Below the pieces are notes generated by a model. The model had not been told where the DNA came from, made no database searches, and saw nothing but the letters and a program-made list of their open reading frames with translations. This document shows positions 2,561 through 16,168 of a stretch of 20,744 nt of DNA, piece after piece. Source of the stretch: a virus; the IMG/VR virus record IMGVR_UViG_3300032087_003651, positions 1 through 20,744 of that record; one strand, given 5' to 3'. Each line of letters starts with the position of its first letter. Within the stretch, counting starts at the first letter, position 1. A program made the translations under genes and the position numbers.

Positions 2561-3769
2561 TTAGAATATCCCCGAGAATAATGGCCCAAATCCGCCAGCT
2601 GCTCCGGCTGCGCCTAATACAGACCCGCCTAAACCAGTTAACCCGCCGAATAAACTAGATTGAGCAGCGTTTTGCGCATTAGCCTGATTAAGAGCTGCTT
2701 GATAACCCATTTGACCAGCTTGAAATACGGGAGCGGCCTGAACTTGTGAACCTTGAAACGGTTGAAATTGCGGAATATTTGGTTGTGAACCAGTACGTAA
2801 TGCATTAATCTCGCTAAGCGGTAATTGACGTAATGCCAACGCTTCCTGCAAAGCTCGTCCACGAGTAGCTGACTGTAAACCGTATAATGCTTCTTGACCC
2901 TGTCTTTGCGCCTGTAAATTAGCTAAGTCCATAGCGAATTGACGCTGCTGTTCTTGACCAGCACCTAATATTGCGGAAGTTAACGCATCAGACTCTCTAC
3001 GGGATAAATCTTGTTGAGCAGTTTGCCACGCTCTACCACCACGGCCTTGACCCTGTAGTAATAAAGCATCTTCTTGAGCTTGTCTAGCTTGTTGTAATTG
3101 AGGGTTTAACCGATCCATTAATGCCTGCTCAACCCTTTCACGCATCATTACGTCAGGGGAAATTTGCCGGTCAAATGCTGTCGGATCTATACCTCTTACT
3201 TCAGGCAATATACTTGGATCAAAATCACGCATCATTACGTTAGGGGAAATTTGCCGGTCAAATGCTGTCGGATCTATACCTCTTACTTCAGGCAATATAC
3301 TTGGATCAAAATCCTGACCCATTGCTCTAGCAACACGACCTAGACCACCCTCAGCCACATCACCAAACTGTTGCGAAATTCTCAACTGTTGATCTAATAA
3401 CGCCTGCGCTTCAGGAGTAAGTTCATCACGAACTGTGACCATATCCGGATCGAAACCACCCATAAACATTTCACGAGTCGGTTTAATCGGCATATTGTCT
3501 GTACCAAATTCGCGAGGTCTACCAGATGGATCTAATCGCCATTTCTCAAAATCGCTACGATATTGACGCATTGCTTCTTGATAAGCACCGGCGTTAAATC
3601 TATTAGGATCATTTTCACCACCGTATTGAACGGTTCTCTGACCAAAAGGTGAAAATACATTAGGATTGCTTAACCTACCGCTTAATCTAGCAGCATCAAT
3701 ATTTGCGACGCCTTGTTCTCTTGCAAGACCGGTGTAATCTGGTGCTGGAGGCGCTTTACTCTTACCCAT
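2561..3769 (-). CDS. Virion-associated protein with an internal 29-residue tandem duplication (402 aa)
   Basis: The N-terminus, with a Pro-rich APPAPDYTGLA segment followed by Ala-rich and NPNVFSPFG-like residues, resembles a widespread family of podovirus virion proteins encoded just after the tail genes; this is family recall, not a search. Residues about 153-181 and 182-210 are two nearly identical copies of a 29-aa unit (begins DFDPSILPEV in both), from an 87-bp DNA duplication. A Gln/Ala-rich helical region follows (about 215-350). The last 32 residues are Gly/Ala/Leu-rich and hydrophobic, like a membrane-inserting segment. The start at 3769 has only a weak AGG upstream. It is the first gene after a 74-bp gap holding a good minus-strand promoter, so it may head its own transcription unit with the two ejection-type genes. 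Confidence 0.6.
   Translation of the reverse strand: MGKSKAPPAPDYTGLAREQGVANIDAARLSGRLSNPNVFSPFGQRTVQYGGENDPNRFNAGAYQEAMRQYRSDFEKWRLDPSGRPREFGTDNMPIKPTREMFMGGFDPDMVTVRDELTPEAQALLDQQLRISQQFGDVAEGGLGRVARAMGQDFDPSILPEVRGIDPTAFDRQISPNVMMRDFDPSILPEVRGIDPTAFDRQISPDVMMRERVEQALMDRLNPQLQQARQAQEDALLLQGQGRGGRAWQTAQQDLSRRESDALTSAILGAGQEQQRQFAMDLANLQAQRQGQEALYGLQSATRGRALQEALALRQLPLSEINALRTGSQPNIPQFQPFQGSQVQAAPVFQAGQMGYQAALNQANAQNAAQSSLFGGLTGLGGSVLGAAGAAGGFGPLFSGIF
3141..3314. repeat. Tandem 87-bp direct duplication inside the 402-aa virion gene
   Basis: Copies lie at 3141-3227 and 3228-3314, directly adjacent, with period 87 bp (29 codons, frame kept). By eye they differ at only two positions (C/T at copy position 14 and the last base). 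The near identity, including synonymous sites, points to a recent slippage or unequal-recombination event. Confidence 0.95.
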
Positions 3770-3819: not shown

Positions 3820-3847
3820 ATTATAACTAATATTATCAAAATATCAA
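3820..3847 (-). promoter_or_regulatory. Sigma-70-like promoter for the 402/398/ejection gene block
   Basis: On the minus strand TTGATA (3842-3847) and TATAAT (3820-3825) are separated by 16 bp. The site lies in the only sizeable gap of this part of the module (3770-3843) and its -35 touches the end of the GNAT gene. It would start transcription about 45 bp upstream of the 402-aa gene. The region is AT-rich, which raises the chance of a fortuitous match. Confidence 0.5.
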
Positions 3848-4278
3848 ATCCAGCGACATTCCCGCTTAAGCATTCCGTACACGATTAAATCAGTTCTATC
3901 CTGACCTTCTCTGAGCACACCTTCTTTGATGAAACCTATTCGTTCATCAAACTTTTGAGCGGCTATATTATCTATTCTTACAAGTCCTGTGACTCTAGAA
4001 CAGCCAAGTATATTAAAAGGATAATTAAAAGCGTGAAATAAAAAATCTCGAGTAGCCCATTTTGACCCTGGTCTGGCAGCCACGTGCATTTGGCAATCAT
4101 TCCATACTCGACTATTGTCACTGCTAAAACCATCATAAACAACGGAAACAACAATACCCTTCTCATCAAACATTCCTATGGCTTTAGCGTTTGGTTCGAA
4201 TAGGGGCAATCCTATAATTTCGCTTGCGAATTTTTTTAATCGTTCTTGGTATTCGCCAGAAACAATCTCATAACTCAA
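3844..4278 (-). CDS. GNAT-family N-acetyltransferase
   Basis: The 144-aa length and order of elements fit a single GNAT domain. A central VAARPGSKWATRDFLFHAFN segment sits where the acetyl-CoA pyrophosphate-binding loop and following helix would be. A C-terminal VTGLVRIDNIAAQKFDERIG segment (about residues 95-114) matches the 'neighbour-residue' helix of RimJ-like acetyltransferases, followed by GFIKEGVLRE. These enzymes transfer acetyl from acetyl-CoA to an amine; the substrate here is unknown. Its start overlaps the stop of the tail nozzle gene by 4 bp, so it is expressed with virion genes. GNAT genes inside podovirus tail modules are known, but their role (host protein or virion modification) is unresolved. 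Confidence 0.8.
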   Translation of the reverse strand: MSYEIVSGEYQERLKKFASEIIGLPLFEPNAKAIGMFDEKGIVVSVVYDGFSSDNSRVWNDCQMHVAARPGSKWATRDFLFHAFNYPFNILGCSRVTGLVRIDNIAAQKFDERIGFIKEGVLREGQDRTDLIVYGMLKRECRWI

Positions 4279-13801: not shown

Positions 13802-15217
13802 TTAATAATTTTGACTAGCAAGGCGTTTGCGACGATGAGCCGCTATCATTTCGTCGATAGTTTGATTTACGCCGAAGCGTGCTTCCTCAGCAGGTGGTGC
13901 AAGTTGCTTCTCTTGACATGCGATGGCCAAGTAACGGAAAGCATCTGCTGGGTTAGATGCCCAATCATGTAATGGTTTGTCCTTCAATCGTCCTAGTTTC
14001 TCATCGAACTCATAACGATAAGCACGTAATGCGTCAGTGCCCTCAAGACATTTCATGTCAAAATAACACTTGCCTAGAACCTTCCGAGCAGCTTGAATAC
14101 CATCTTGTACAGAAAGAGATGGAGTACGCCAAATGAGTTTCCAACCAAATACTGATGCAAACAACTCCTCAGTACTCTTACCCTTAGCAGCAAAAGTCTT
14201 AGCCTTAGCGTCATGAGGAAGCCAAAGCTTTTCGTATTCGTACTCTTGTCTGTATTTAATTTCTTCGATGTCTGCCCCATATCTTACCCGTATTTGATCG
14301 TACACAATGTCTATTGTGACCTCTTTACCCAATAATTGCGAGGCAAACCAGTCTGGGTCACGTAAGTTATCACAAACATAATCAATGACATGGACTTCAT
14401 TTCCTACGTATTGCCAGAACCAAACAGCAGTGGCATCTGTTCGCCCCAAGTCCCATGCGGTGTAAACAGGGAAACCTTTTTGATGTGGTACGGTGCAAAT
14501 CCGCACATCTTTATCAATCTTACGCATCTCAGCGCCATACACAGCACCTGTTGCAATATCTTGGAATGCGCCCTCCCAAACATGATCGTAGCTATCAGGT
14601 CTCTCACGTTGGTCTTTGATACGTTGTTTATTGAGTACTTCAGGGAATTGTGGATTGTCTGACCAGTTAACCTCAACAACTTTATGGTCTTCATCCTCAC
14701 TGACTCTAAAACGCTTATGTGTCGCCGAATGCTTAGATGCTGGGTTCCATGTGACCCATAATTCTGAATATTCGGTTCGTAGTGTCGGAATCAGTACTTG
14801 CCAGGTCTCTTCACGTACCGGTTCAGCCTCATCAACCCAACAGATTAGGATTTTAGCTTTGGACTTAATCGAGCCGATATTACGGGATAAGCCAACAAAC
14901 TTGTACTCAACCAATCCATTCTTGGTGCGTACATATTTCTCACCGATCTCATAATACTGCTCAAGCCAGGGTATTGAGCGGATGGCGTGTTTGATCTCTT
15001 CAAGGGATGATTCGTCTAGGGAGTTCATGAATTCACGACCACAGAGAATAATACCTCTAATCCCTGCTTCGGCAAACATCATACCCCTGATCGCTGTCAT
15101 GAGCGCAAAGCTCATTGTCTTACCCGAACCCCTACCACCGTAAGCTCCACGAACAAAAGCATCGCCAGTAAAGACAGGGATTAGCTTAGGTGGGAGTTCA
15201 ACGGTTGCTTGGGTCAT
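13802..15217 (-). CDS. terL: Terminase large subunit (ATPase and nuclease)
   Basis: Of 471 aa, typical for TerL. The Walker A motif GGRGSGKT is at residues 27-34, Walker B ILICWVDE at 123-130 with catalytic Glu130, and motif III WVTWNP at 154-159. The C-terminal RNase H-like nuclease starts at AWDLGRTD (254-261, Asp256 and Asp261), and an LPHDAKAKTF segment and a final NPADAFRYLAI provide the later acidic residues. It translocates DNA into the procapsid through the portal and cuts concatemers. The start at 15217 is firm: an in-frame TGA directly precedes ATG, with AAGG upstream. That TGA ends a 12-codon in-frame mini-reading frame beginning at 15256, overlapping the end of the 59-aa gene. Confidence 0.96.
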   Translation of the reverse strand: MTQATVELPPKLIPVFTGDAFVRGAYGGRGSGKTMSFALMTAIRGMMFAEAGIRGIILCGREFMNSLDESSLEEIKHAIRSIPWLEQYYEIGEKYVRTKNGLVEYKFVGLSRNIGSIKSKAKILICWVDEAEPVREETWQVLIPTLRTEYSELWVTWNPASKHSATHKRFRVSEDEDHKVVEVNWSDNPQFPEVLNKQRIKDQRERPDSYDHVWEGAFQDIATGAVYGAEMRKIDKDVRICTVPHQKGFPVYTAWDLGRTDATAVWFWQYVGNEVHVIDYVCDNLRDPDWFASQLLGKEVTIDIVYDQIRVRYGADIEEIKYRQEYEYEKLWLPHDAKAKTFAAKGKSTEELFASVFGWKLIWRTPSLSVQDGIQAARKVLGKCYFDMKCLEGTDALRAYRYEFDEKLGRLKDKPLHDWASNPADAFRYLAIACQEKQLAPPAEEARFGVNQTIDEMIAAHRRKRLASQNY

Positions 15218-15445: not shown

Positions 15446-15466
15446 AAATTCCCCGTCTTTCCGGGG
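15446..15466 (-). terminator. Hairpin terminator at the end of the structured RNA
   Basis: On the minus strand CCCCG (15462-15466) pairs with CGGGG (15451-15455) across GAAAGA, followed by AATTTTAA. The U tract is short, so termination may be partial, which would allow terL expression. The same CCCCG can instead pair with the CGGGGG of the downstream ribosome binding site (15437-15442). Confidence 0.55.
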
Positions 15467-15827
15467 TGTCAAGCCTTTTTCTTCCTAAGAACTTCACGGA
15501 CTCGAACCGCATCCCTTCCTACCAAGCCTCTGCTAACGAGCCAGAATCGAACTGGCACTTTCTTAGATGGTGGCCCTCGCTGATCTGGGCTTGAGGGGTT
15601 GATAAATTCCTACTACCTCGGCTCTGGCATCCTTGCAAGTCAGCACCTTGCGGTCACCATCAAGTAAGAACCGTATTACTAACCTTAAGTTAAGGCTGTC
15701 TGTTACAGGTAATCAGACTTCTTTACGACTCTTAATTCATAGCGAAGACACCTGGTTATCCTCCGGTAAGGGTGTAGAGTTCCGGCTACACAGACCACCA
15801 AAAGGTCAATCTTTTCCCAAGTGTTCA
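15451..15827 (-). ncRNA. Candidate structured non-coding RNA between terS and terL (~375 nt)
   Basis: No credible reading frame is present on the minus strand, yet the segment has its own near-consensus promoter, ends in a hairpin terminator and is dense in short perfect helices. In transcript order: GTCTGT (15790-15795) with ACAGAC (15698-15703) enclosing a GTGTAG/CTACAC hairpin and a CAGGT/ACCTG arm; CCTTAACTTAAGG (15683-15695); GCAAG-GTGCTGA-CTTGC (15635-15651); CCCTC/GAGGG (15574-15597). A 3' domain (15485-15566) is closed by CTAAGAA/TTCTTAG and contains two 7-nt-loop hairpins with T-loop sequences TTCGATT and TTCGAGT. The size and ornate folding recall large phage RNAs, but I recognise no known class. 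A canonical tRNA, tmRNA or group I intron could not be fitted. Confidence 0.6.
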
Positions 15828-15833
15828 AGTATT

Positions 15834-15861
15834 ATTATATAGCAAACAGATTAGTTGTCAA
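15834..15861 (-). promoter_or_regulatory. Consensus sigma-70 promoter for the structured RNA / terL segment
   Basis: On the minus strand TTGACA (15856-15861) and TATAAT (15834-15839), both perfect consensus hexamers, are separated by 16 bp. The site overlaps the last codons of terS. Transcription would start near 15827, at the 5' end of the structured region. This is the best promoter match in the window. Confidence 0.8.
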
Positions 15862-16168
15862 TCTTTTTATTTTCAAGCGGTGTGAGTACTATTTTCTGCG
15901 GAACAACAGTATTACCCTCTGAATCGACTTGCTCGACTCTAGATAACTTTGGAACAACATATTCCATCATGTTGAGATAAAGTTCGAATGCTTTGGCGGG
16001 ATTTGGTTGAATGTTCTTTTCGGGACATCCTTCAGCAACCTCATAGAGCCACCGTGAGACGTTTTCATGATTACCGTCTATTAGACCTTTAATGGCCTCG
16101 CGAAATTGCGCTGTCGCCTTATTTGGTGTGCCTTTGACCCTTCCACCCGTTTTAATCCCTTTAGCCAT
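15851..16168 (-). CDS. Putative terminase small subunit (105 aa)
   Basis: The protein starts MAKGIKTGGRVKGTPNKATA; the GGRxKGTPNK N-terminus is a basic motif found in small phage proteins encoded next to large terminases. Helices with FREAIKGLIDGNHENVSRWL (about 22-41) and KAFELYLNMMEYVVPKLSRV (about 60-79) follow, consistent with a DNA-binding and oligomerisation layout. By family knowledge TerS recognises the packaging start site and feeds DNA to TerL. ATG at 16168 has AGGG 8 nt upstream. It is the first gene of the minus-strand module and is separated from terL by the structured RNA and a 59-aa gene, which is unusual since terS and terL are normally adjacent. Assignment is from motif and position. 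Confidence 0.65.
   Translation of the reverse strand: MAKGIKTGGRVKGTPNKATAQFREAIKGLIDGNHENVSRWLYEVAEGCPEKNIQPNPAKAFELYLNMMEYVVPKLSRVEQVDSEGNTVVPQKIVLTPLENKKIDN

Follow-up and report, generated by a model that had tools for sequence, protein, structure and literature searches.

The elbow of tRNA contains a pair between residue 56 of the T-loop and residue 19 of the D-loop and a contact between residues 55 and 18; the ribosome, RNase P and RNase Z dock on its outer pair, and TruB docks on the T-loop (PMC4810234). The principle of tRNA mimicry is already known. The tRNA-like module of bacterial Y RNA is circularly permuted (PMC11472068), and GOLLD and ROOL are structured phage RNAs of unknown function that often lie in tRNA islands (PMC12286853). 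Here we describe double-elbow RNA, a phage-borne family to which the permuted module of bacterial Y RNA is the closest in shape and GOLLD and ROOL are the closest in habitat. Like bacterial Y RNA (YrlA, RF02553), double-elbow RNA is a small and presumably stable RNA built on a permuted imitation of tRNA, but it has two elbows instead of one, is carried by phages and contains a kissing pseudoknot. It resembles GOLLD and ROOL as a structured phage RNA often found in tRNA islands. It differs from them in its tRNA-elbow architecture, in occurring also away from tRNA genes, and in size (about 120-200 nt are conserved, whereas many GOLLD members exceed 800).

The viral tRNA-like structures of TYMV and BMV and the IGR IRES are likewise pseudoknotted viral imitations of tRNA. 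In contrast to these, double-elbow RNA occurs in DNA phages, is not located at the genome 3' end, shows no acceptor or CCA end and does not keep a constant relation to a start codon. Two T-loops per RNA also occur in interdigitated T-loop modules (RNase P, T-box, L1 stalk). Those T-loops grip a tRNA elbow, whereas each T-loop of double-elbow RNA has an internal D-loop-like partner, so the RNA resembles tRNA and not a gripper.

We analyzed a 20,744-nt stretch of viral DNA (positions 1 to 20,744 of IMG/VR record IMGVR_UViG_3300032087_003651; the window). A first-pass annotation, made from the letters alone, had proposed a dedicated locus at 15451-15861, between terS and terL, for a structured non-coding RNA with its own promoter, possibly of an undescribed class. 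On the minus strand, the gene order is a promoter at the end of a 105-aa ORF, about 390 nt free of credible genes, a 59-aa ORF and then terL. The perfect promoter named in that annotation is present; the exact TTGACA-16-TATAAT element occurs once across the window and in 4 of 100 shuffles, and it overlaps the end of the 105-aa ORF (15851-16168). We also agree that minus-strand positions 15834-15440 hold no credible gene. A short reading frame through T-arm 2 (ATG at about 15512) was rejected, as it is not present in relatives. The placement between terS and terL stands for terL (13802-15217), which is clear from a PHROG terminase match, but the evidence for terS consists of the position of the 105-aa ORF and a weak match (4e-4) to a family of unknown function. 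Elsewhere in the window, a virion protein ORF (2561-3769) contains an internal near-perfect repeat (DFDPSILPEVRGIDPTAFDRQISPxVMMR, twice), and a GNAT-type acetyltransferase gene (3844-4278) lies within the structural gene block.

The end coordinates proposed for the RNA were close, but the conserved RNA occupies just 15566-15451. For the 5' part of about 260 nt (15828-15567), no relatives were found, matches being confined to the 3' core, and its folding was no better than that of shuffles. The minimum free energy of the whole segment behind the promoter gave z -0.57 against dinucleotide shuffles, with 24 of 100 shuffles as good, so its description as packed with short helices is no evidence on its own and fails as a statistical claim. 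Pieces of the transcript ranged from z -0.80 to +0.04. With z near 0, we set single-sequence folding energy aside as uninformative about the RNA.

Relatives of the core were found in other phages. With blastn against phages, a match of 52 nt (83%, E=7e-5) was obtained in Klebsiella jumbo phages, where it falls in an unannotated stretch beside a tRNA array. The motif AACTCTNGTGAGACAAA from the Klebsiella RNA matched 25 viral contigs, about 20 of them with one common flank plan. Plasmid and genome searches yielded Aromatoleum aromaticum EbN1 plasmid 1 (84.6% over 115 nt), Pseudomonas sichuanensis and a Propionibacterium MAG. Short-form viral contigs were found, one of which is an intermediate (L047), and a further motif gave nine more members, all model-confirmed at E below 5e-29. 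In all, we collected 49 members, among them jumbo phages (OBP, D6, SXP01, Kp24, SA002), smaller phages and a plasmid. Isolated carriers are Klebsiella phages (LPKP23, KpLz and Kp24 types, Centimanus), Shewanella phage SXP01, Pseudomonas phages OBP, D6, Ebordelon and Holyagarpour, and Salmonella phage SA002; the carrier records that we read do not annotate the RNA as such. A downstream extension of the core in the Klebsiella jumbo phages is absent in other members and thus not part of the family. The Klebsiella RNA also resembles the 23S sarcin-ricin loop at its 3' end (AGTACGAGAG); this lead was discarded, being a short match with no Rfam rRNA match.

Covariance model R1 was built from 19 long-form sequences with the window left out. 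Its sole match in the window was at 15559-15477 on the minus strand (50.5 bits, E=1.7e-12). Model R2, built from short forms, in turn finds long forms (best E=2e-18). R1 was also run on 299 Pseudomonas genomes and on 369 genomes of the class; the only match was an already-known member, which indicates that the model is specific and that the RNA is rare in bacterial genomes. Weak R2 matches in 11 bacterial genomes were rejected: of nine that we examined, eight overlap or adjoin tRNA genes, and R1 found none of the R2 matches. In the window, both T-arms, both GG hairpins and the kissing pseudoknot are all paired (Table 1), and by sequence comparison the window RNA belongs to the phage-borne double-elbow RNA family.

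Table 1. Features of the double-elbow RNA locus in the window.
Feature	Position	Strand	Remarks
Sigma-70 promoter TTGACA-16-TATAAT	15834..15861	-	12/12 exact match
5' part of expected transcript	15567..15828	-	Lineage-specific; only the 3' core matches relatives
Conserved core, short form of the family	15451..15566	-	R1 match; aligned with 9 short-form relatives
T-arm 1 GCCAG-TTCGATT-CTGGC	15540..15556	-	5/5 pairs form; stem covaries in 33 long-form members
Cap hairpin right after T-arm 1, acceptor-like position	15529..15539	-	Loop bears AGC for the kissing pseudoknot
Kissing pseudoknot, 5' strand AGC	15532..15534	-	Pairs with 15474-15472
D-loop-like mini-hairpin 1 CT-TGGT-AG	15519..15526	-	2/2 pairs; tertiary covariation in relatives
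T-arm 2 TGCGG-TTCGAGT-CCGTG	15495..15511	-	5/5 pairs (two G-U); stem covaries
D-loop-like hairpin 2 TTCTT-AGG-AAGAA	15479..15491	-	5/5 pairs
Kissing pseudoknot, 3' strand GCT	15472..15474	-	3/3 kissing pairs in the window
3' hairpin CCCCG-GAAAGA-CGGGG	15451..15466	-	5/5 pairs; the terminator of the first-pass annotation

The fold was compared in an alignment of 33 long-form sequences (A4). In these, 97.5% of the cells of the proposed structure are paired, 34 of the 36 pairs have changes on both sides, and covariation is 0.826, compared with 0.208 in shuffled alignments and at most 0.120 when the structure is slid. From 5' to 3', the RNA consists of T-arm 1, the cap hairpin, D-like mini-hairpin 1 (usually with a UGGY loop), T-arm 2, a spacer hairpin (long form only) and D-like hairpin 2, followed by the strand that kisses the cap loop and by a 3' domain. 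D-like hairpin 2 is CUC-UGGU-GAG in the long form and has freely varying stems in the short form (for example, GGACU-UGGU-AGUCC); relative to the window, its stem differs in sequence and keeps its pairing in members L042, L043, L046, L050 and L052. In the kissing pseudoknot, the loop that follows T-arm 1 pairs with the strand 3' of D-like hairpin 2. The pairs of this pseudoknot are formed in all 33 long-form members, with up to four pair types, and its variable pair in the short forms is A-T, T-A, G-C or C-G in 10 of 10.

The 3' domain is unlike between the two forms. In the long form, a pseudoknot (the second in the RNA; permutation p 2e-4) accompanies two hairpins; in the subgroup of the window there is one hairpin, whose GAAAGA loop is invariant and whose stem covaries in L042, L044, L046, L047, L050 and L052. 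This hairpin had been read as a transcription terminator. The hairpin itself is real, but only four T follow it, a terminator scan makes no call, and the GAAAGA-loop hairpin is also found inside the RNA in six other members.

A T-arm is followed by a short capped helix, a linker of two nucleotides and a D-arm, an order that corresponds to a circular permutation of the upper half of tRNA, and the T-arm/D-like pair is present twice per RNA. We compared the positions corresponding to the tRNA elbow contacts; R1, which made the alignment, contained none of the 19-56 or 18-55 pairs. Among the 33 long-form members, the 56-19 pair of elbow 1 is CG in 28, AU in 3 and GC in 1, and the 55-18 pair is UG in 28 and GU in 2. 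In elbow 2, 56-19 is CG in 29 and AU in 2, and 55-18 is UG in 26 and GA in 5. This covariation has a permutation p <= 7.5e-4, a value that ignores the relatedness of members, as do the shuffle tests. Judged by eye, the tertiary pairs were swapped in about nine separate lineages (L009/L010, L021, L020, L069, L077, L031, L033/L034, L011 and L071, L074/L075), and the swaps occur in unrelated contigs. That the 19-56 and 18-55 pairs covary in an RNA other than tRNA strongly indicates that evolution has maintained the elbow twice in one small RNA. In the window, the GG at 15523-15522 docks on T-loop 1 with both C56-G19 (15522/15549) and U55-G18 (15523/15550) present, and the GG of D-loop-like hairpin 2 is expected to dock on T-loop 2. 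Comparison across members thus establishes the family, its helices, both elbow dockings and the kissing pseudoknot. Collecting homologues and testing them for covariation was the check that the first-pass annotation had itself suggested, and both bear out its central claim of a dedicated, promoter-driven structured RNA of an undescribed class.

The family is without an Rfam match; the window RNA had none either at gathering thresholds or at E up to 10, and ARAGORN found nothing in the window. The tRNA test (ARAGORN and Rfam RF00005) revealed no acceptor stem, CCA end or anticodon arm in the window. The two programs gave no window match to tmRNA, RNase P RNA or the group I intron, in agreement with the earlier comparison by eye. 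The GOLLD and ROOL models did not match the window, nor, at E up to 10, the family RNAs in L005, L016, L019, L021, L022, L024 and L031. We found no description of double-elbow RNA in the open literature, as distinct from subscription papers and preprints. As a category the RNA class is apparently new, a prior description elsewhere being possible.

We profiled the surroundings of the members for clues to function. The RNA is present as one copy in each of 31 records. A tRNA gene lies within 1 kb of 17 of the 49 members, on the same strand in all 17, and several members end 2-6 nt before the next tRNA, which marks the 3' boundary of the RNA. Members away from tRNA genes are located among genes for exonuclease, helicase, DNA polymerase, SSB, RuvC and virion RNA polymerase. 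No downstream gene is common to the members, and the neighboring protein genes vary, which favors an action in trans.

We consider it somewhat probable that double-elbow RNA is a trans-acting RNA whose two tandem tRNA elbows make it a tRNA-elbow mimic. The case for such a mimic is built on architecture, single copy, variable neighbors and the company of tRNAs. As a stable free RNA, it would offer two elbows, each with its flat G19-C56 face, to an elbow-gripping host factor; this factor could be the ribosome (L1 stalk, A-site finger, L5), RNase P, RNase Z or an enzyme that modifies T-loops, such as TruB. The RNA would often be made together with phage tRNAs, the window copy having its own promoter, and would serve as a competitor, recruiter or decoy during infection. 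Whether members of this widespread undescribed class use their two permuted tandem elbows to capture or block host tRNA machinery (candidates being the ribosome, RNase P or tRNA-modifying enzymes) or a tRNA-targeting defence seems to us evenly balanced. The family spans jumbo phages, other phages and a plasmid, suggesting that the benefit is general. The question raised is which host elbow-binding factor phages target with RNA, and double-elbow RNA is tool-sized for studies of elbow recognition.

An RNA of this shape could act in cis instead, controlling the processing, stability or translation of its own transcript by attracting tRNA-processing enzymes. The position often 2-6 nt from a tRNA gene or directly between two protein genes would suit such an element, and tRNA-like elements can attract RNase P (PMC4810234). 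Its targets would be, for example, tRNA precursors in jumbo phages and, in the window, terL and the small ORF. However, the downstream gene differs among members, there is one copy per genome, and the window copy carries its own consensus promoter; we therefore regard control in cis as unlikely.

Membership of the bacterial Y RNA (YrlA) class, with the Ro60 (TROVE) protein as partner, is considerably less probable than that, despite the similar permuted tRNA mimicry (PMC11472068). The window has no match to YrlA (RF02553) at E up to 10, the weak YrlA matches of L021 and L016 do not overlap the RNA, and the family has two elbows plus the kissing pseudoknot. The TROVE gene was found in none of 16 carrier records (among them eight named phages or plasmids searched over the full record; phage- and plasmid-side genes only), and a control genome was positive.

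The first-pass annotation had listed among possible roles a packaging RNA, comparable to phi29 pRNA, and a regulatory leader for terL. This reading is already largely refuted and we give it very little weight. It drew on the position of the window RNA between terL and the small ORF taken for terS, and one member (L050) also has terL about 2 kb downstream. As a rule, however, members adjoin varied genes and not terminase genes. The phi29 pRNA is a phage RNA too, but Rfam gave no match to it and we saw no tie to packaging genes. At 28 loci with relatives of the window's portal gene and two with relatives of its terL, part of which stop short of the terS-terL gap, there was no match besides the same phage, which disfavors packaging. 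A terL leader ending in a terminator finds no support, as the hairpin belongs to the RNA itself. Least probable of all is that the RNA derives from a tRNA gene by decay or recombination, or is an att site of tRNA 3' ends, a reading that the tRNA-like T-arm sequences, an ARAGORN call of tRNA-Ser on L050 and weak R2 matches to real tRNAs might suggest: the RNA lacks an anticodon arm and CCA end, and covariation rules this reading out, as compensatory changes keep the stems, docking pairs and kissing pseudoknot across unrelated phages.

Double-elbow RNA accounts for gaps left unannotated in phage genomes and for some false calls of tRNA there. The false tRNA-Ser of ARAGORN covers the RNA at L050 5930-6026, so some members may be mislabeled as tRNA in databases. 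Additional elements were seen in jumbo phages. Those of Klebsiella, Shewanella and Erwinia (L005 2120-2193, L011 2756-2828, L012 1940-2065) share a further conserved element of some 70 nt (CATCTCGGCTAAACACCGGGCGCTG...GGTGTAGATGA), positioned immediately upstream of tRNA genes; it is possibly another unnamed structured RNA. The Klebsiella tRNA region also holds a 160-nt insert (L005 2303-2462) with a closing helix of about 12 bp (TGGACTTAAAAG...CTTTTAAAGTCCA); L009 and L010 lack it at this position, and it looks like an inserted structured module. An unusual tRNA with a long anticodon-region insertion (L005 2197-2299; Rfam tRNA 34.4 bits) is labeled tRNA-OTHER in phage MJ359. Downstream of the RNA core, Klebsiella jumbo phages share a 400-nt conserved non-coding stretch (L005 2620-3010) with AGTCAGTACGAGAG and a terminator-like hairpin at its end. 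In the Aromatoleum plasmid and the Propionibacterium MAG (L042 5450-7200 and L044), some 0.55 kb of sequence upstream of the RNA and the downstream HU-family gene are 90% identical, and from this identity the flanks are a shared mobile segment.
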